Positions 36,681 to 46,558 of a stretch of DNA of 51,320 nucleotides are shown here, in pieces; position 1 is the first letter of the stretch, and each line of letters starts with the position of its first letter. The notes under the pieces were generated by a model. That model had not been told where the DNA came from. It did not search any database and worked only from the letters and a program-made list of their open reading frames with translations. Both the position numbers and the translations under genes were made by a program. The DNA comes from Novacetimonas hansenii JCM 7643 (GTDB taxonomy: Bacteria; Pseudomonadota; Alphaproteobacteria; Acetobacterales; Acetobacteraceae): contig NZ_BANE01000004.1 of the NCBI RefSeq assembly GCF_000964405.1, positions 1-51,320 on the forward strand, read 5' to 3'.

Positions 36681-39600
36681 ATGTATGATGGGCCTTCTGT
36701 GCCTTGCCGTCTTTTCCTGCCCGATATCCGCCGTACCGGGGCATGGATATGGAGGGGGCTTGCCCTTGTCGGGGCGGTCAGCCTTTGCAGGCCGGTGTCC
36801 TCCCTCTGCGCGCAGACGCCCGTGCGTTATGCGGAAAATATCCTCAATGAGCAGATAGAGGAGGGAGCATTCTGGATCCATCATGGCGATGACGCACATG
36901 CCCTTCATGCGCTTCAGCGTGCATTGCGGATCGAGCCGGATAATATCGAGGCCCGTTTGATGCTTGGTGCGGTGCAGGTCCATCATGGCGACCTGATCGC
37001 GGCGCGTGCCACATTGCAGATCCTGCAGGCGCAGCAGGGGACAGATGCGCAGGTCGCGGCCCTGCGTGGCTGGATCGGGCAGGAGCCGATTGATCCGGGG
37101 GCGCTGGCGAATGCCCGTGCCGTTGCGGATCGTGGTAAGCCGTTGCAGGCAACCCTTGCCTATCGCACGGTTTTCCGGGCGGCGCATCCATTGCCGGAAC
37201 AGGAACTGGAATATGACCGGGTTCTGGCAGGTTCCCTTTTGGGATATGGCGAGGCGATCCAGCGCCTGCGCGCGCTGGGTGCAATCTTTCCACATGACCT
37301 TGAGGTGCGCATGGCCCTTGCGCAGGCGTTGAGTTATCGGGCCGCGTCCCGCCCGGACGCGATCGAGGACATGCGTGTGCTGGCCACGTCCCCCACGACA
37401 CCGGATTTTATCCGTGACGAGGTGATGCAGTCATGGCGCAAAACACTGGAATGGATGGGAACAGACCCGCAGGCCGAACCTTATTATCGCGAATGGTTGT
37501 CCCTGCATCCAGATGATGGCGAAATGCGTCGCCGTCTGGCAACAGTGGAGGCCGCGCGGGCACAGGCGGAACGACTGGCGTTGGTGGGGGCAGGGTACCA
37601 CGCGCTGTCGCATGGGGAACTGGATCAGGCAGAAAGTGATTTCCATAATTCCATGCAGTCCGATCCCCCCCATGCCGAGGCTCTGGAGGGGCTGGGTCTA
37701 GTGGCGCAGCGCCGGGGGGATTTGAAATCGGCGCGTAATTTCCTGACGCAGGCCCTGAACCTTGCGCCCGGTAATGCAGGGATTCGTGATGCCCTTGCAG
37801 GGCTTGATGCGCCGGGCGGTGATCCGCAACTGGCCCGCCTGTGGGCATTGGTGGCGCATCATGAATATGAAGAGGCATGGGCCATGTTACCTGCTGTGGA
37901 AAAGGACCATGGCAGGATTGTCGATACGCTCAGGGTCCGCGCCATCATTGAACAGTCGCGTCACCAGCTTGGCGATGCAGAGGCCGCCTGGCGCGGGGTG
38001 CTGCGCCTTGTTCCCGGCGACATGCCCGCAGCAGCATCCCTGTCCGATGTGCTGGTGGAGGAAGGTAAGATCCATGAAGCCGAAGGTTGGATCGCACGTC
38101 TGAAAGCCGCGCGTTATCCCGGCGTCACGGCATTGGAATCCGGGGTGCTTGGCGCCATGGCGGAGGCCGAGACGGACCCGCGCAAGCGCATCGTACTGCT
38201 GGAACAGGCATTGCGTGATGCCCCGCATAATGGCTGGCTGCGCCTGCATCTTGCGCAGGCATGGTGGGTGCAGGGGCAGCCGACACGCGCGCGGAACCTG
38301 ATGGCGGTCCTGTGCGATCCCCTGCCGAAAATGAATGGGGACGTACAGGCCTGTTTCATCTTCGCCCTGCAGGATCAGGATATGCCACGTGCCGATGCGC
38401 TTCTGGCGCGCCTGCCACCTGCGGATATCACTGCACAGATGTCTGATGGCGTGGCGCAGGTCATGCTGTGGCACCAGATCCGTGTTCTGCCGACAGACGA
38501 CGCGCGCGCGATTCCCATGTTGGAACGAATGCCCGTTGTGCCCGACCCCGAAGGAACGCATGCGCGGCTGGTGGTGGATGCAATGCTTAAACGCCATGCC
38601 CCTACCGAGGCGACAGCAGGCGTGCTGCATCGTGCCCTGACGCAAAGCACGGGACATGTCAGTGTGAATCAGAGCCTGTCTTATGCCGGTATGTTCATGC
38701 AGATTGGCGATCCCGTGGCGGCGCAGCAACTGCTTGATGCGCTTCCGTCCATCACGCAGGGAAGGCGTCTTACCCCCGCACAGGTCCGGGACCTGGGTGA
38801 AATGGAAAAAAGCCTTGCGATCGCACGTGCGGACCGCGCCGATCTGGACGGGCATCCCGACATGGCGCGGCGCCTGCTTGACCCACTATTGGCACAGACG
38901 CCAGATGATGCGGACCTGCTCCTTGCGCGGGGCCGTGTGGAAGCCGCGTTGCGCCAGCCCGGTCAGGCCATGGTTTATGACCGCAAGGCTTTGGCGCTCC
39001 GTCCGGAAGACAGGATGGCGGAGGCGGCCTTTGCACGTGACGGCCTTGCAAGTGGCCATGAACACATGGCGTTGGAGATGGCGCACAAACTGGCGGCCGG
39101 GCATCCGCAATGGGGCGATACGTGGGAGATACAGGCCGAGATTGACGGCCTGCATGGGCATGACCTTCGCCGCCTGCGCGATGTGCGGCACGCGCGGATG
39201 CTGGACTGTACGCCCACGCAAAATGAGGATGATTCCACCGGTCATGGTACGCATATCGATATAGGCTGCGCCCCGTATCACGTGCATGCCGGGGATGAAT
39301 GGCCCGACATAAGCACAGGGTTCGTGCCCGACATGGGGGCGACGATGCCAGAGATTTATCATTATGACCCGCATCTGACCCCTGTGCAGGCGCTCGACCG
39401 ACAAAGCGATTATCTATCCCGCGCCCTGTCACCGCAGGCAGACGGGAATATCGAAATCCGCGATCGTTCAGGGCAGTCGGGACTGGGCCATATGACTGTG
39501 GTCAACATGCCCATGACAGCCACATTGCCGCTGTCCTCTACGCAAAATCAGTTGTTTGTTTCGGTAATGCCAAGTGTGCTGATGTCGGGCGATCCGCTGT

Positions 39601-40487
39601 CCTCCACCACCACGGCGCGACAGTATGGCAGTGTTGCCAGCAATGGTGTGCGTCCGGGATTCCGCGTGGCACCGGCTGTGGCCGGTGTGGCGTTATCTGT
39701 GCATTACCAGCGTCGGTGGCTGTCGGCTGATGTCGGGTCAACACCGTTGGGATTTGCGACATCCAACGTTCTGGGGGGAATCGAACTGACCCCACACCTG
39801 ACACATGACCTGACCCTGCGCCTAACGGGGGAACGTCGGGCGGTGACAGACAGCCTTGTGGCCTATTCTGGCGCGCGGGACCCGGGAACCGGACGTGTGT
39901 GGGGCGGCGTGACCCGCAACAGGGGGCATGGACAACTGGAGTGGTCGCAGCCGGGATACAATCTCTATGCTGGCGGCGGGTATGCGGTCATGCAGGGCAC
40001 GAACACGGTGGCCAACCACGAAGCCGAAGCAGGTGCGGGTGGCTCCGCCCTCGTGTGGCACCGCCATGATGCCCAACATCTGCGGCTTGGGCTGGACCTG
40101 GTCTATTTCGGATATCGCCGCAATTCGTATTTCTTTACGTGGGGGCAGGGGGGCTACTTCTCTCCGCATGCGTTCATGGCGGCGCTGATGCCGCTGACCT
40201 ATGACGGGCATGCGGGGCGATGGACATGGATGTTCAAGGGGGAAGGGGGATATCAGCACTATACCGAGAATGCGACCGCGATGTTCCCGCTGGGTGAAGG
40301 GGGGATCGCGGCCCGGCAGAAATATGCCGGCCAGTCCACGGGAGGATTGGCTGGTAATGTGCAGGCTCGGGCGATCTATCAGCTCACCCCGTCTTTCCGC
40401 CTTGGGGTGGAGGGCGGATATTCCCGTTCAGGAAGCTGGGATGAAGTCCATGGGATGATTATGCTGCATTACGCGCCGGGGCATTAG
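36681..40487 (+). CDS. bcsC: Cellulose synthase outer membrane export protein BcsC
   Basis: Export protein of 1268 residues. The N terminus has a long basic region and a hydrophobic signal sequence ending near SSLCAQ (about residue 45). A TPR superhelix follows over about 50-870, with repeats such as HALQRALRIEPDNIEARLML and SARNFLTQALNLAPGN, and would bind periplasmic peptidoglycan or the nascent chain. From about 930 on, the C-terminal BcsC beta-barrel has aromatic-rich strands (for example GGYFSPHAFMAALMPLTYDG). It starts 16 bp after bcsAB with AAGGAAA upstream. bcsD, bcsX and bcsY are absent, so this matches the short bcs3-type operon. Confidence 0.94.
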   Translation: MYDGPSVPCRLFLPDIRRTGAWIWRGLALVGAVSLCRPVSSLCAQTPVRYAENILNEQIEEGAFWIHHGDDAHALHALQRALRIEPDNIEARLMLGAVQVHHGDLIAARATLQILQAQQGTDAQVAALRGWIGQEPIDPGALANARAVADRGKPLQATLAYRTVFRAAHPLPEQELEYDRVLAGSLLGYGEAIQRLRALGAIFPHDLEVRMALAQALSYRAASRPDAIEDMRVLATSPTTPDFIRDEVMQSWRKTLEWMGTDPQAEPYYREWLSLHPDDGEMRRRLATVEAARAQAERLALVGAGYHALSHGELDQAESDFHNSMQSDPPHAEALEGLGLVAQRRGDLKSARNFLTQALNLAPGNAGIRDALAGLDAPGGDPQLARLWALVAHHEYEEAWAMLPAVEKDHGRIVDTLRVRAIIEQSRHQLGDAEAAWRGVLRLVPGDMPAAASLSDVLVEEGKIHEAEGWIARLKAARYPGVTALESGVLGAMAEAETDPRKRIVLLEQALRDAPHNGWLRLHLAQAWWVQGQPTRARNLMAVLCDPLPKMNGDVQACFIFALQDQDMPRADALLARLPPADITAQMSDGVAQVMLWHQIRVLPTDDARAIPMLERMPVVPDPEGTHARLVVDAMLKRHAPTEATAGVLHRALTQSTGHVSVNQSLSYAGMFMQIGDPVAAQQLLDALPSITQGRRLTPAQVRDLGEMEKSLAIARADRADLDGHPDMARRLLDPLLAQTPDDADLLLARGRVEAALRQPGQAMVYDRKALALRPEDRMAEAAFARDGLASGHEHMALEMAHKLAAGHPQWGDTWEIQAEIDGLHGHDLRRLRDVRHARMLDCTPTQNEDDSTGHGTHIDIGCAPYHVHAGDEWPDISTGFVPDMGATMPEIYHYDPHLTPVQALDRQSDYLSRALSPQADGNIEIRDRSGQSGLGHMTVVNMPMTATLPLSSTQNQLFVSVMPSVLMSGDPLSSTTTARQYGSVASNGVRPGFRVAPAVAGVALSVHYQRRWLSADVGSTPLGFATSNVLGGIELTPHLTHDLTLRLTGERRAVTDSLVAYSGARDPGTGRVWGGVTRNRGHGQLEWSQPGYNLYAGGGYAVMQGTNTVANHEAEAGAGGSALVWHRHDAQHLRLGLDLVYFGYRRNSYFFTWGQGGYFSPHAFMAALMPLTYDGHAGRWTWMFKGEGGYQHYTENATAMFPLGEGGIAARQKYAGQSTGGLAGNVQARAIYQLTPSFRLGVEGGYSRSGSWDEVHGMIMLHYAPGH

Positions 40488-41059: not shown

Positions 41060-41908
41060 TTATTTTCGTGATAGAAGGATGTTGCCGCGACTACGTGCCT
41101 TGCGGCGATATCCGGCTTTAGCCAACCTGCCCATCAGGTCTGATTGCCAACGATCACGTTCACTGTATTCAATGATAATATGACCGGGTAGCAGGCCGAC
41201 AGGTGCGGTATCCAGAAAGGGCAGTAAGGCCCTATCCTCATATCCTTCAATATCGATCTTCAACACATCAACATGATTTACTTGGGCGTCTGTCAGGATA
41301 TCAAGCAAGGGTCGAATACGAACGGTTTCTCCTTCACCCTGACCAATGCTACCACTCCCATAATCCATATTGGTCTGGATCAGGGTGCCGGGCTCATCCC
41401 TTTTACCTACGGCTGCCTTGACCAAAAAAGCTTTGATCCCGTTAAGGGCCATGTTGGTGGAAAGTCTTTCAAAGACAATGCCATTGGGCTCAATGGCGAT
41501 GATCCTGGCCTTTTTGGTGGCAGCAAACAGGGAAAAGAACCCCATATTTGCCCCGATATCAACGAAGGTACCACCAGTAGGCAGGCATTTGTCCAGCCAT
41601 CGCCATTCTTTGGCATTGTAGCAGTTTCCGCAGACCGCTGACTTGGCATCAGTCTGGTTATCCTGTGGATAGAACCGAACTTTCAATCCGAACAGATATG
41701 AATCCACAGGGCCTTTACATTCCTGCTTGAACCTTTCGACAAAGGGGCGTCGAAAACGCATATATCCAAACAGGGTATCGAAAAATACCGTGCGTATCCG
41801 TTTCTGTATTTTGGTTGGGGGATAAGTTCCGAAGGGAAGTATGTTTATGTTATGTTCCTGAATGGGCACAACAAATGGCGGTGATTCCGCCACCTTTTGA
41901 AGTATCAT
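41060..41908 (-). CDS. FkbM family methyltransferase
   Basis: SAM-dependent methyltransferase of 282 residues. Landmarks are motif I FVDIGANMGFFSLFAA, the acidic ribose-binding IIAIEPNG and the family segment VDVLKIDIEGYEDRALLPFL. FkbM enzymes O-methylate sugars or other small molecules, and near polysaccharide genes they often act on glycans, so a target in a cell-surface polymer is plausible here. A Cys-rich insertion (AVCGNCYN) lies just before motif I. ATG 41908 has no good ribosome binding site and is preceded by an unusual repeat structure (41919-42125) that may control it. Confidence 0.87.
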   Translation of the reverse strand: MILQKVAESPPFVVPIQEHNINILPFGTYPPTKIQKRIRTVFFDTLFGYMRFRRPFVERFKQECKGPVDSYLFGLKVRFYPQDNQTDAKSAVCGNCYNAKEWRWLDKCLPTGGTFVDIGANMGFFSLFAATKKARIIAIEPNGIVFERLSTNMALNGIKAFLVKAAVGKRDEPGTLIQTNMDYGSGSIGQGEGETVRIRPLLDILTDAQVNHVDVLKIDIEGYEDRALLPFLDTAPVGLLPGHIIIEYSERDRWQSDLMGRLAKAGYRRKARSRGNILLSRK

Positions 41909-41918
41909 TATTCACCAT

Positions 41919-42125
41919 GTTTCATCGCCCTACGACAGGCGTGCTTGCACATCAACGCCTTTTGGCGTCGGGTGGGTCGTAGCGTGTGAAACAAGGTGAA
42001 CTCACGCCCTACCTATTCCCCAGACGATAAACAGCACATACTGTTCACCGCTGGACCATAGTCCGGGTGTTGTATTCGGCAGGCCACCCGACATAGGGGC
42101 CTCCTTGTTTCAACGGCGCTACGAC
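41919..42125 (-). promoter_or_regulatory. Three-repeat RNA-like element upstream of the FkbM gene
   Basis: Read on the minus strand, three related elements occur in order. C (42125-42107) is GTCGTAGCGCCGTTGAAAC, B (41992-41976) is GTTTCACACGCTACGAC, and A (41936-41919) is GTCGTAGGGCGATGAAAC. B is inverted relative to C and A. C can pair with B over 9 plus 10 bp (extended by AAGG/CCTT) and B can pair with A over 7 plus 6 bp, so the two hairpins are mutually exclusive. Between B and A lies a small inner hairpin, GACGCC-AAAA-GGCGTT. The C-B loop holds a 30-codon ORF. A cis-regulatory leader or a small mobile element are both possible. Confidence 0.5.
42002..42094 (-). CDS. Putative 30-residue leader peptide
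   Basis: The ORF encodes MSGGLPNTTPGLWSSGEQYV followed by LFIVWGIGRA. It has a near-perfect AGGAGG ribosome binding site 5 bases before ATG, one of the best in the window. It lies entirely inside the loop of the C-B hairpin, and part of its ribosome binding site falls in the stem. I do not recognise the peptide. Translation of it could decide which hairpin forms and so affect the FkbM gene downstream. Confidence 0.4.
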   Translation of the reverse strand: MSGGLPNTTPGLWSSGEQYVLFIVWGIGRA

Positions 42126-42844
42126 ACGCCACCTCACACTATAGCACATGTAGGGTTGCACTACTACAGTCAAATCTAAGACACTGATTTAAAACAATAT
42201 TACAAAAATATAGCCTAATTTTTTAGCAGCTATCATGAATATGTATGGGGGATGTTTGATCGGTGTTCATGCCAATGAACTACGGCGCGGACCTCACTGA
42301 TGAACAGTGGGATTGAGCAGGCATGACATTCCAAGGACAGGGTCAGGCGCTTGCCCAAGGGAAATAAACATGCATCGGCATCATTGATGCCATCATGTAT
42401 ATGGTAACGCATTGCTGTAAATGATGTGGGGTGTCCACGCATTTCCTGTCGTAGCACACGGTCTGTAAAATACGGGTGATGGCGAACTGTCTATTACACC
42501 TTATGTAATATGGTGATAAAAGCTGCCGATGTGGAGGTGCAACCCGCAATATGTGTAATTAACAGCCGTGGCATCGAACAGGAAAATCCGCCAATGCCGA
42601 GATCAAAAATTTTTGGAAATTTTCAGACCCTGATTGAATATTTTACCTTGTTTTGATAATTTTCCAAATAGGCGACAGGATCATGGTCGGTGATCTTATA
42701 TGCTGGCATTGGGGCGGTCATGAGTGATGGAAATCAGGACAGGTCTGCACAAAAAGTATTTTGTAAAAATCCGAAAAATTCATACCTGTCATGGTATATT
42801 TTGCAACCGGATTTCCAGATCCTCTCCTTGGCAGGTAAAAATAT
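42126..42844. other. Intergenic region without supported genes
   Basis: Between the structured element and the DUF2075 gene there are overlapping minus-strand frames of 68 and 74 codons (42233-42549) in different frames, with no recognisable domain and weak ribosome binding sites. They may be decayed coding sequence. The last 200 bp are AT-rich and should contain the promoter of the gene at 42845. Confidence 0.4.
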
Positions 42845-44104
42845 ATGATTAAGCCTCTCCTTTCCCGTAAGGACAGCGCAGTGTCGCGTCTTGCGCCTAC
42901 GATGGCATTAACACAGGGACAGGATGCCCTGATGGCGGAGGTGCTGTCTTTCTGTCGCGCCCATCAGGCGGATGACCACGCGGTGTTTGTGATTGAGGGG
43001 GATGCGGGTACTGGAAAAAGCCTGCTGCTTAATACCCTGTTTACCGCGATACAGCAGGCGGCACGGGGGCAGGATATTCATGATCCGCTCTATGGCACCC
43101 ATAATTTCCTGTTGGTCAATCATCCGGAAATGATCAAGCTTTACCGTAATATTTCACAAAATCAGACTGCACTACGTAAAAAAGATTTCGAACGTCCGAC
43201 AACCTTCATAAACCGTGCATATGGTGGGGCGCGACGTGCCGACATAGTTTTGGTGGATGAAGCCCACCTGCTGTTGACCCGCAGCGATCCTTATAACCGT
43301 TTTCGCCAGAATAACCAGCTTGAGGAAATTATCCGCCATGCGCATGTCGTGGTGATTATCTTTGATGCTCATCAGGTTCTGAAATTCAAGAGTCTATGGG
43401 ATGGTGCCTCCCTTGCGCGATTGCTGTCGGGCGTTCCGGTCGTGACACGGCGATTGGAACATCAGTTTCGTATGCATGCCCACACGGATGTCATGCAGTG
43501 GATACGTGCGCTGCGGGATGGCATCCTGCGACCACTGCCCGCACCGCAAACGTTTGATTTCCGTGTTTTTGATGATGCACAGGACATGTATGACGCCATC
43601 AGGCAACGGGACATGCAATATGGTATGTGTCGGATGCTGGCGACCTATGATTATCCCTACATACTGAATGGACAGGATCATTTCATTACAGAAGGGCGTT
43701 TTCACCTGCGTTGGGATCGTGCCATGCCGCAGGCCCGCCTGCCGTGGGCGGAACGGCCCGATACGATTGACGAAGTGGGGTCGGTCTATACCATCCAAGG
43801 GTTCGACCTTAATTATGCTGGTGTCATCCTTGGGCCGTCTGTCACCTATGACCGCGCGACGGATCGTATCGTGATCGACCCCTCCCGTTACGAGGACCGT
43901 GCGGCCTTTACCGGTCGGGACGGGGTGGAGAACCCGGCAAAGGTCATGGTACGGATCATTCTCAATTCAATCAACGTCCTGATGACCCGTGGGGTAAGGG
44001 GGCTGTATATTTACGCAAGCGAACCAGGACTACATGCCCGTCTGGCGCGATTGTGGGAGGAACGGCAGGTTTCTGATGCACCCCAATCTGGGGAATGTTT
44101 ATAA
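42845..44104 (+). CDS. DUF2075 helicase-like P-loop ATPase
   Basis: Cytosolic protein of 419 residues in the DUF2075 (superfamily 1 helicase-like) family. Walker A is VIEGDAGTGKSLLLNTL, Walker B is IVLVDEAHLLL, and a sensor region with DAHQVL and EHQFRMHAHT follows. Helicase-type motif V is SVYTIQGFDLNYAGVILG and motif VI is INVLMTRGVRGLYIY. The family is thought to act on nucleic acids and often appears beside restriction or other defence genes, but here it stands alone with no nuclease partner. AGG lies upstream of ATG 42845. Confidence 0.85.
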   Translation: MIKPLLSRKDSAVSRLAPTMALTQGQDALMAEVLSFCRAHQADDHAVFVIEGDAGTGKSLLLNTLFTAIQQAARGQDIHDPLYGTHNFLLVNHPEMIKLYRNISQNQTALRKKDFERPTTFINRAYGGARRADIVLVDEAHLLLTRSDPYNRFRQNNQLEEIIRHAHVVVIIFDAHQVLKFKSLWDGASLARLLSGVPVVTRRLEHQFRMHAHTDVMQWIRALRDGILRPLPAPQTFDFRVFDDAQDMYDAIRQRDMQYGMCRMLATYDYPYILNGQDHFITEGRFHLRWDRAMPQARLPWAERPDTIDEVGSVYTIQGFDLNYAGVILGPSVTYDRATDRIVIDPSRYEDRAAFTGRDGVENPAKVMVRIILNSINVLMTRGVRGLYIYASEPGLHARLARLWEERQVSDAPQSGECL

Positions 44105-44116
44105 TATATACCATGT

Positions 44117-46411
44117 TCAGCGTTTCGGCGTGGCCTGCATGACAAAGCGCAGTTCTCCTCCTTTGAGGATATCTTCGTGTCGCAGATGCAGAAGGTCCTG
44201 TGTCCTGCCATTGAGGGTCACGGACGCAACATAAGGATGGCCAGCATCCAGCCCATCCGCCACCATGGTAAAGATGCGTCCGTTGGGCAGATGAATAACC
44301 GCCTTGGGAACGAACGGCCGACCGATGGTGTAATCATTGCTGCCTGGTGCAACGGGATAAAAGCCCAGCGCGGTGAACAGGTACCATGCCGATGTCTGCC
44401 CCAGGTCGTCGTTACCAGCCAATCCGTCGGGGCGGGCATTATACTGGCTGTCCATGATCTGTTGCAGACGCTGCTGTGTTTTCCATGGCGCACCGGCATA
44501 GTCATAAAGATAGGCGATATGGTGGCCTGGTTCGTTGCCATGCGCATACCATCCGATCAGCCCGCTGATATCCTCAACATTTTTGAATCGGGCAGGATCG
44601 ACTTTCGTATCAAACAGTTCGTCGAGCCTGGTGGTGAATTTCTCATTCCCTCCCATTGTCGCAATCAGGCCGGGCACGTCTTGTGGCACGTACCACAGAT
44701 ATTGCCAGGCATTGCCCTCGGTATAATCGCTGCCATAGGCTGCGGCGGCAGGGTCGAAGGGAGTGTGGAATTCCCCTGTGCTCAACCGGGCCCGGAGGAA
44801 CCCGGTCTGTGAATCCCATTCATTGTGCCAGTTACGGGCGCGTTTTTCAAAGGTCTCGGCAATGCGTGTCCTGCCCATCGCACGTGCCATCCGCGCAAGC
44901 GACCAGTCATCATAGGCATATTCCAATGTCTTTGACCCGGCTTCGGCTTCCCGGTCGATCGGGACATAACCAAGCTTCATGTAATCTGTCAGGTCGCCGT
45001 AAACGGGTGATGTGGCAGATGCAACCATCGCATCGAGTGCGGCATCCGCGTTAAACCCCCGCACCCCTGCCAAATAGGCGTCTGCGATGATCGGCACGGC
45101 GTGATATCCGGTCATGCACCATGTTTCCAGCCCCTGATAGGACCAGATCGGCAGCACGCCAACCGGGCTGGCCTGTTGCGCCGCAAGAAGGGAGCGCACG
45201 AACTGTGAACTCATATCTGGACGCAGCAGCGCCATGAGCGGCTGTTGCGCGCGATATACGTCCCATGTGGACCATGTGGAGTAGAAGCCAAAGCCACGCG
45301 CCTTATGGACTTCCTGATCCGGGCCGCGATAATCCCCGTTGGCATCCATGCTCAGGGTAGGGGCAAGCATCGCGTGGTAAAGCGCGGTATAGAACTGTGT
45401 GCGTTGATCAGTTGAGCCTGAGACGTCAATGACCGAAAGTGCCCGGTTCCATGCGGTTGTGGCATCGGCACGGCGCGCATCGAAATCCCAGCCTCTGCCC
45501 TCGGCCTCTAGGTTGGCGATGGCATTTGTCTCGCTGATGGGAGAGATTGCGACCTTCACCCCAAGTGGCGTGGAGAGAGTGCCGAAATCGAATACAGCCT
45601 CGACAGCGCGGCCATTCTGCTCATCGGGGTCAACGGGGGCATTCCCTGGTCCACGGAACCCGTGATAGGTCAGGTTGGTTTCGCGATTATAAAGGGTCCG
45701 CGCGACCATCGGACGTGAAAAGCGCATTGCAAAACATGTGGTCCGCCCCGGTGCCCACCCACGTGTGGTGCGACAGCCCGACACGGTTCCGTCTGAACGC
45801 ACGCGCAGGCGCGTCCACAGCACTTTTCCCGGATAGTCATAGATGCTGGGGCGCAGGTCCAGCAGGATATGTGCGGGTTTGTCCGTGGGAAAGGTATAAC
45901 GATGCCACCCTACCCGCAATCCGGCCGTCAGTTCAGCACGGACACCATAATCATCCAGCGTTACGGAATAAGATCCGGGATGTTCCTCCTCGGTCGCATG
46001 GCGAAAGCGTGAGCGATAGCCACTTAGGGGCTTGGCCGGATCGCCGGGTTCCATGCGGACATCGCCTGCAATGGGCATCAGCAGCCAGTCGCCAAGGTCG
46101 GAATGCCCCGCGCCAGAGAAGTGGGTCTGTGAAAATCCCATGATGGTGGGGTCATTATACTGGTATCCCCCGGCCCAGTCATAGGCATGGTGGAATTCCG
46201 GCATCGCGGTGTCGGGAGAAGGCTGGATCATGCCGAATGGAATGCTTGCCCCGGGGAAGGTATGTCCGGCGCCGCCCGTACCGATGCGCGGGTCCACCAT
46301 GTCGGCGGGCGAGGGGGCATGCTGCATGCTGGCATGCCCGCTGCATGGGAAAATGAAGGCGGTAGCCGCCAGCATGACGGGCAGGCCGTACAGGATCGGG
46401 CGGCGTTTCAT
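44117..46411 (-). CDS. GH92 family alpha-mannosidase, secreted
   Basis: Periplasmic or secreted glycoside hydrolase of 764 residues. ATG 46411 gives a signal peptide (MKRRPILYGLPVMLAATAFI, cleaved near GHA). The GH92 opening DPRIGTGGAGHTFPGASIPF followed by GMIQPSPDT is unmistakable. The conserved segment SDYTEGNAWQYLWYVPQD carries the proposed catalytic Glu, and GNDDLGQTSAWYLF carries the conserved Asp pair. Family enzymes are Ca2+-dependent inverting exo-alpha-mannosidases, mostly alpha-1,2, acting on yeast mannan or N-glycans. It is divergent from a hybrid sensor kinase, suggesting regulation by a glycan signal. It ends 12 bp from the convergent DUF2075 gene. Confidence 0.92.
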   Translation of the reverse strand: MKRRPILYGLPVMLAATAFIFPCSGHASMQHAPSPADMVDPRIGTGGAGHTFPGASIPFGMIQPSPDTAMPEFHHAYDWAGGYQYNDPTIMGFSQTHFSGAGHSDLGDWLLMPIAGDVRMEPGDPAKPLSGYRSRFRHATEEEHPGSYSVTLDDYGVRAELTAGLRVGWHRYTFPTDKPAHILLDLRPSIYDYPGKVLWTRLRVRSDGTVSGCRTTRGWAPGRTTCFAMRFSRPMVARTLYNRETNLTYHGFRGPGNAPVDPDEQNGRAVEAVFDFGTLSTPLGVKVAISPISETNAIANLEAEGRGWDFDARRADATTAWNRALSVIDVSGSTDQRTQFYTALYHAMLAPTLSMDANGDYRGPDQEVHKARGFGFYSTWSTWDVYRAQQPLMALLRPDMSSQFVRSLLAAQQASPVGVLPIWSYQGLETWCMTGYHAVPIIADAYLAGVRGFNADAALDAMVASATSPVYGDLTDYMKLGYVPIDREAEAGSKTLEYAYDDWSLARMARAMGRTRIAETFEKRARNWHNEWDSQTGFLRARLSTGEFHTPFDPAAAAYGSDYTEGNAWQYLWYVPQDVPGLIATMGGNEKFTTRLDELFDTKVDPARFKNVEDISGLIGWYAHGNEPGHHIAYLYDYAGAPWKTQQRLQQIMDSQYNARPDGLAGNDDLGQTSAWYLFTALGFYPVAPGSNDYTIGRPFVPKAVIHLPNGRIFTMVADGLDAGHPYVASVTLNGRTQDLLHLRHEDILKGGELRFVMQATPKR

Positions 46412-46558
46412 GAATGCATCCTGTCTTGGCTGTGGATCATTACGGACACGGCATTTTACATGACATGGTGGCGGTGTCATCCCGCGTCCTGAAGGGGGCT
46501 GGTTCCGGCGGAAAACATCCTGCCCCGTCATACCGGTTTCCGCGACAGGTTCCTTCAA

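Follow-up and report, generated by a model that had tools for sequence, protein, structure and literature searches.

The window analysed here, a 51,320-nt stretch of contig NZ_BANE01000004.1 from Novacetimonas hansenii JCM 7643, carries on its minus strand a gene coding for an FkbM-type methyltransferase of 282 amino acids (41060..41908; Pfam Methyltransf_21, PF05050, 44.1 bits, E 3.3e-11). Other neighbours of the element described below are genes coding for a cellulose synthase operon protein C (window 36681-40487), a Schlafen-type helicase protein (42845-44104) and a family 92 glycosyl hydrolase (44117-46558). Examination of the region upstream of the FkbM gene revealed all three repeat copies reported in the first-pass annotation, lying on the minus strand in the order C, inverted B and A. 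Site C (42103..42125, minus strand) is the counterpart of the a1b1 site of phage C4 systems and consists of a1, GTCGTAG, within a hairpin loop (42125-42119), and b1, TGAAACAAGG (42112-42103). Repeat B, as read from the sequence, is composed of CCTTGTTTCA and CTACGAC, within 42000-41975. Site A (41911..41936, minus strand), the counterpart of a2b2, is complementary to B; it carries a2, again GTCGTAG within a hairpin loop (41936-41930), and b2, TGAAACATGGTGAA (41924-41911), which covers the ribosome-binding region of the FkbM gene, the start codon of which follows directly at 41908. A weak terminator-like hairpin (41894-41877, minus strand) is present inside the first codons of the gene.

The pairing of B with C was borne out by 9 + 10 bp and that of B with A by 7 + 7 bp, with 6 bp more past one mismatch, slightly above the 13 bp first described for it. 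The proposal that B has C and A as alternative partners and cannot pair with both is likewise supported, the pairing being conserved in other loci. A repeat finder listed a single 14-nt inverted pair, C against B. The 241-nt minus-strand sequence folds at -106.7 kcal/mol; 200 shuffles averaged -79.3 (sd 4.8), and none of them was as low (z -5.7). Upstream of C, the sequence reads as a promoter-like extended -10 box, TGCTATAGT (42138..42146, minus strand), from which a transcription start near 42131 is predicted. In the matching upstream stretch of 52 elements, TGnTATnnT was found in 26 and TGnTAnnnT in 35, both counts being given without a shuffled control. A sigma-70 scanner did not list this box and listed 42236-42207 instead, at chance level.

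The first-pass annotation had read these features as an attenuator or translational switch in which a ribosome on a 30-codon ORF (42094-42002, minus strand) breaks the C:B stem and frees B for A. The ORF and the AGGAGG upstream of it both exist, and so does the mutually exclusive pairing. Among 52 distinct elements, the codon at the ORF start position is ATG in 29, TTG in 12 and another in 11 (CTG in eight of these), an ORF length of 30 codons occurs in 2 and one of 28-32 codons in 4, and a stop is met after 16 codons in 18 of the 41 elements with ATG or TTG. In such a mechanism, moreover, repression would have to come from the pairing of B with A, the peptide acting as the sensor, and the elements have no peptide in common that could sense anything. 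Reading of a leader peptide by a ribosome was rejected because the ORF is not conserved, and we consider this explanation the most improbable of those weighed here. What stands of the switch is its likely output, the translation of FkbM. Conserved pairing and a conserved ORF had both been expected of copies elsewhere; the pairing proved to be conserved, the 30-codon ORF did not. The ORF is thus judged not to be a gene and appears from the comparison of elements to be a by-product, the structured RNA being what is conserved; the start MSGGLPN is shared because the RNA core is conserved.

This core (41963..42092, minus strand) has the features of a C4-type, sRNA-Xcc1-like RNA, based on a match to Rfam family RF02221, on a consensus fold and on our covariance model R1, and would yield a predicted mature RNA of about 130 nt with an inferred 5' end. 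The consensus fold, built from 38 elements, comprises a P1 stem of 9 bp, P2, an inner hairpin, P3 with 5 bp and a loop containing the guide b', the unpaired guide a' and finally the closing strand of P1. In the window, the strands of P1 are GUCGGGUGG on the 5' side (42084..42092) and CCACCCGAC on the 3' side (41967..41975), the latter pairing in 99.8% of alignment cells. P1 is followed by GCCA (41963..41966), similar to the end of a tRNA acceptor stem. The P3 hairpin (41982..42007) has the stem GCGUG (42007-42003) with CACGC (41986-41982), all five pairs of which are changed on both sides among the elements, and carries b', UUCACCUUGUUUCA (42000-41987), in its loop. The guide a', UACGAC (41976..41981), is unpaired in the C4-like fold and can pair with C. 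The closing strand of P1 may instead pair with the bases directly after it, CGACGCC with GGCGTTG (window 41975-41950), and a hairpin of this type was seen by eye at the equivalent place in several loci.

Changes on both sides were found at 13 of the 32 pairs of the consensus fold, and G-U pairs occur in P1, P2 and P3. In P1 the variation, G-U included, is one-sided only, and the 5' strand of this stem is constant partly by choice, the elements of the 52-set having been found through the motif GTCGGGTGGCC. The expression used for this set also demanded R, Y and C after P1. When the count was repeated with nothing demanded after P1, RCCA followed the stem in 51 of 56 elements; RCC follows it in 23 of 28 other alphaproteobacterial loci, and in only 22 of 66 sRNA-Xcc1 loci. 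The 52-set count skipped seven matches, among them L112 and L117, which have no flank; four of the skipped loci, including L115, L134 and L140, are elements by stem pairing. Alignment A4 contains 50 of the 52 elements (L025 was left out, as was L110, which has no clear C and scores 9.3), and alignment A5 and the covariance model R1 contain 38.

A search of the window with the Rfam model of sRNA-Xcc1 (RF02221) gave 36 bits and an E-value of 1.3e-4, below the curated cut-off of 53. In the reverse search, R1 matched 12 of 19 sRNA-Xcc1 sources at E<=0.001, the best at 4.2e-9; with the threshold relaxed to E<=1, the number was 15 of 19. The genome of the window has a second match to sRNA-Xcc1, L163 (G000:C445:29372-29455, minus strand), which is marginal (E 0.156). 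The Rfam C4 model (RF01695), which scores 68.8 bits on phage P1 itself, gave no match at E<=1 in 41800-42400 and no C4 match at E<=5 in ten sRNA-Xcc1 loci and more of that kind; the C4 of phage P1 was matched neither by RF02221 (E<=1) nor by R1.

In a nucleotide search, 22 of the 299 family genomes had a match, the genome of the window included. R1 had matches in 41 of 397 genomes of the family and, among 385 genomes of the class, in 24, of which two belong to the same family. RF02221 matched 57 of 398 genomes sampled over the phylum. A pattern scan of named genomes returned 60 stretches, nearly all of them from Acetobacteraceae such as Acetobacter, Gluconacetobacter, Komagataeibacter, Novacetimonas and Gluconobacter, with one stretch each from Ancylobacter, Novosphingobium, Brevundimonas and an unclassified Rhodospirillales genome. 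Ten plasmid records carry the element, none covering more than 80% of the query. A phage origin of the window copy was considered and rejected, as no match was found among 50,697 phage records and the element was absent from viral contigs by exact pattern. In L006/L130 (Gluconacetobacter entanii) the element ends after the first half of the core, and in L045 (24-1251) an sRNA-Xcc1-type RNA follows a CRISPR array at a distance of about 250 bp.

A check of covariation, as suggested with the first-pass annotation, was run on 50 sequences: the C:a' helix (six a1:a' pairs) is paired in 98.0% of cells and has a covariation score of 0.692 as compared to 0.152 (sd 0.024) in shuffles, while slid versions pair in at most 56%. 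Two of the five measures applied to C:a' were not above shuffles, namely both-sided changes (equalled or exceeded by 118 of 500 shuffles) and pair types (by 470 of 500). The match of a' and b' to their target, in order, was then expressed as a two-segment score and compared with that of partners permuted 10,000 times; this score replaced duplex energy because a and b are separated sites. The 66 sRNA-Xcc1 loci used are picked rows above the family cut-off (30 returned as loci and 36 fetched), weaker rows being left out, and a held-out set comprised 28 other alphaproteobacterial loci found by R1 from the core alone.

For site C, the mean score was 17.48 in 24 Acetobacteraceae loci (permuted 10.75, highest 12.95), 14.48 in the 66 sRNA-Xcc1 loci (permuted 10.78, highest 11.54) and 15.49 in the held-out loci (permuted 10.46, highest 11.84), and the partner from the same locus ranked first in 20, 44 and 25 cases, respectively. 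The corresponding values for site A were 12.94 (permuted 11.2, highest 12.55; first rank in 6 of 24), 12.53 (permuted 10.28, highest 10.88; first rank in 21 of 66) and 11.69 (permuted 10.33, highest 11.16; first rank in 8 of 28). The window locus itself ranks third of 24 for A because its close relatives have the guide in common. When plain duplex energies were used, the means were also beyond all 5,000 permutations; A ranked first in only 7 of 24 Acetobacteraceae and 2 of 66 sRNA-Xcc1 loci. These permutation results are strong and carry no formal probability, because related sequences sit in the sets. Comparison of the loci thus shows, at the level of sequence, that C, B and A vary from one locus to another and yet correspond to each other within each.

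A clear adjacent A (score of at least 12.9, within 130 nt) was found for 19 of the 52 Acetobacteraceae elements. About 60% of the elements are without one; these keep C and B, and some of them are on plasmids and some in tandem about 400 bp apart. Among the latter are the tandem copies L013/L028 (G175) and those of G276 and G755, spaced by about 390-420 bp, and behind each copy comes a small ORF, of one type in all of them, coding for about 80-90 amino acids. A similar array of five sRNA-Xcc1 copies about 380 bp apart is described from Xylella in the available excerpt of PMC12189769. A search for targets of the copies without A, made with one pattern in 5 genomes, gave matches in 5 of 5, with many matches for a control pattern too, so that the pattern was too loose. 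At the loci with a strong A, the position of the site relative to downstream genes was examined by counting ATG-started ORFs of at least 30 codons beginning -3 to +12 nt from the end of b2. A ends beside such an ORF in 14 of 19 Acetobacteraceae loci (9.4% of control windows) and in 28 of 32 sRNA-Xcc1 loci (10.3% of control windows).

The genes that follow are diverse. Besides FkbM, those of Acetobacteraceae code for glycosyltransferases of families 25 and 8 and for SHOCT and bacterial PH-domain proteins, two of the seven scanned proteins having no Pfam match. From sRNA-Xcc1 loci, 26 of 30 downstream ORFs were scanned (set A3, four ORFs of 30 codons being left out); they include SymE (5), Bro-N (2), P22_AR_N (1), Rha (1) and KilA-N (1) proteins as well as several PHROG antirepressor families, and the rest had no Pfam family at the threshold used. 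As SymE is a type I toxin family, the module and its downstream gene could form a type I toxin-antitoxin pair in which the gene is harmful unless silenced. The downstream genes, with methyltransferase, glycosyltransferases, PH and SHOCT proteins among them, are too varied for this to apply throughout; it may hold for some loci only, and as a general explanation it is improbable. A role as the guide of an RNA-guided nuclease or recombinase was rejected, the scanned downstream proteins having no one common family. As sRNA-Xcc1 is integron-borne in Xanthomonas, an integron attC site was also considered; it was rejected, no attC core site being recognised by eye.

Pairwise comparisons show that the unit formed by C, the core with B, and A is exchanged between accessory genes. 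The modules of L008 and L009 are 91.7% identical and have unrelated genes behind them; conversely, the first 300 nt of the FkbM genes of the window locus (L001) and L023 are 88.8% alike, while their modules are only 65.6% alike, with C, B and A differing between the two loci and matched inside each. In L023 (1695-2400) the FkbM frame is apparently shifted near its start, and this copy may be decayed. Such exchange would also be expected of a mobile DNA element or recombination site, the main alternative of the first-pass annotation, for which the pairing would reflect DNA hairpins and A and C would be flanking direct repeats; the presence of the element on plasmids and, as judged by eye, often near transposase-like ORFs is in line with it. 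A bare transposable element is not supported as the main reading, since the compensatory changes, together with G-U pairs in all three stems, point to RNA, and it is further opposed by the RCCA that flanks P1, by the placement of A at start codons and by kinship to an RNA family with a northern-confirmed member (excerpt of PMC2996969). No sharp end was seen either, the similarity of L007 and L008 (86.7% over 140 nt) running on upstream of the promoter. We regard a DNA element as very improbable, only slightly less so than the leader peptide.

Equilibrium folding suggests what C may do at the 5' end of the transcript. The P1 stem has a probability above 0.5 in 51 of 52 cores folded alone and in 1 of 52 folded with a 41-nt leader that includes C, and a' is paired to the leader in 50 of 52 when the leader is present. 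With leaders of other loci, the mean P1 probability exceeds 0.5 in 16 of 52, so that in this model the effect of the leader on P1 is specific in part and not wholly. In sRNA-Xcc1 loci, P1 is predicted to form in 64 of 65 without leader and in 11 of 65 with a 110-nt leader. In phage P1 the leader barely changes the stem (0.98 as compared to 0.96), and because it makes so little difference there, the gate would be a feature of the sRNA-Xcc1 side. Pairing with C and the C4-like fold are thus predicted to be mutually exclusive.

C might alternatively be a feedback target rather than a gate, hit in trans by the mature RNA on the next transcript, which would limit the synthesis of the RNA itself. 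Copies that lack a clear A still retain C, and a terminator-like hairpin, seen by eye, separates C from the core in sRNA-Xcc1 loci and in phage P1, where C and core may be separate RNAs. Against this, C of Acetobacteraceae lies about 10 nt from the core and the pairing in cis is predicted to be very strong. Feedback is unlikely, though less so than the other alternatives, and is compatible with our main reading of A, the two not being exclusive.

Taken together, we propose, with a probability of roughly 0.8, that the element is a self-gated antisense module of the C4 type that blocks translation of the FkbM gene behind it. The three-way matching, the fold, the position of A and the exchange between genes come from sequence comparison; use of the promoter, cutting by RNase P, gating by C and the repression itself are inferred. 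The promoter just upstream would give a transcript beginning at C, a second copy of the target located at the RNA's own 5' end. As long as it is attached, C would pair with both guides and destroy P1, keeping the RNA off. Cleavage between site C and P1, with RNase P the probable enzyme as reported for the C4 of phage P1, would switch the RNA on, and displacement of C would be an alternative way to do so. The core freed of C would adopt the P1-P2-P3 fold, exposing b' in the loop of P3 and a' as an unpaired stretch of six bases, and both guides could pair with A and block FkbM translation, either in cis, within one transcript, or in trans, by the processed RNA.

The C-B-A scheme gives many copies one specific target, the ribosome-binding region of the next gene. 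It would widen the reach of C4-type control beyond phage antirepressors to accessory genes of bacteria, in this case that of an FkbM methyltransferase of acetic acid bacteria, and would provide a naturally occurring scaffold whose target is specified by two short, exchangeable segments. More tentatively, and with slightly less than even confidence, we suggest that sRNA-Xcc1 and its relatives in Alphaproteobacteria make up a single widespread class of antisense modules, self-gated and reprogrammable, that serve as portable silencers before acquired genes and in which the scaffold is fixed, guides, leader copy and target change together, and the leader copy acts as a switch that unfolds the scaffold. 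If so, the silenced acquired genes would code for surface-modifying enzymes, SymE toxins and phage antirepressors.

In the available excerpts of the literature (PMC2996969, PMC12189769, PMC12444791), sRNA-Xcc1 is treated as an RNA linked to virulence, with many predicted targets and with symE as a neighbour, the mechanism being left open. The excerpts name sRNA-Xcc1 and C4 antisense together only as separate families; an earlier statement of the link, for example in the sRNA-Xcc1 study of 2011 or the C4 studies of 1990 and 1995, is possible. Among the papers listed for acetic acid bacteria, none names either RNA. A Xanthomonas member of sRNA-Xcc1 is supported as a small RNA by northern blot and RACE (excerpt of PMC2996969). 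The window RNA resembles this family (RF02221) in a similarity detectable in both directions, in the same fold and in the C-B-A scheme found in the 66 loci as a set, but has a larger P2 arm (about 130 nt as compared to about 87 nt), the RCCA after P1 and a leader without terminator.

The order in the phage P1 record is a1, b1, c4, a2, b2 and then icd, and the two-segment score recovers its sites at 14.3 upstream and 18.2 downstream. As in C4 of phages P1 and P7 (RF01695; c4-a1b1, RF03163), where the antisense RNA carries b' and then a', the window has an a1b1 site upstream and an a2b2 site at a gene start, both matching a' and b'; as in the Rfam C4 structure, P1 encloses two hairpins, with b' in a loop and a' unpaired before P1 closes. 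In contrast to C4, the P1 stem has 9 bp instead of about 17, no terminator lies between C and core, the leader is predicted to unfold P1, and the regulated gene is FkbM rather than icd/ant. According to excerpts, RNase P releases C4 from a longer transcript by cleaving at the 5' end of P1, the b' of C4 partly covers ribosome-binding sites and its a' provides specificity (PMC5320573), and full repression of ant requires C4 (PMC8198154, PMC12197685). The C4-like Group 1 sRNAs of Acinetobacter baumannii are similar in having many chromosomal copies and a variable a' loop and in being cut from longer transcripts; unlike the window RNA they match the Rfam C4 motif, and the excerpt gives no matched adjacent target for them (PMC5320573). 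SymE/SymR and P22 sar/ant likewise involve an antisense RNA that silences a toxin or antirepressor gene (excerpts of PMC12444791, PMC12197685). SymR is a cis-encoded RNA of symE (excerpt of PMC12444791), whereas the window RNA lies upstream of its gene, in the same direction, and has separated guides. Judged from these sequence relationships, the window RNA is a distant relative of sRNA-Xcc1 by homology, C4-like in its layout, and by analogy it should work like C4.
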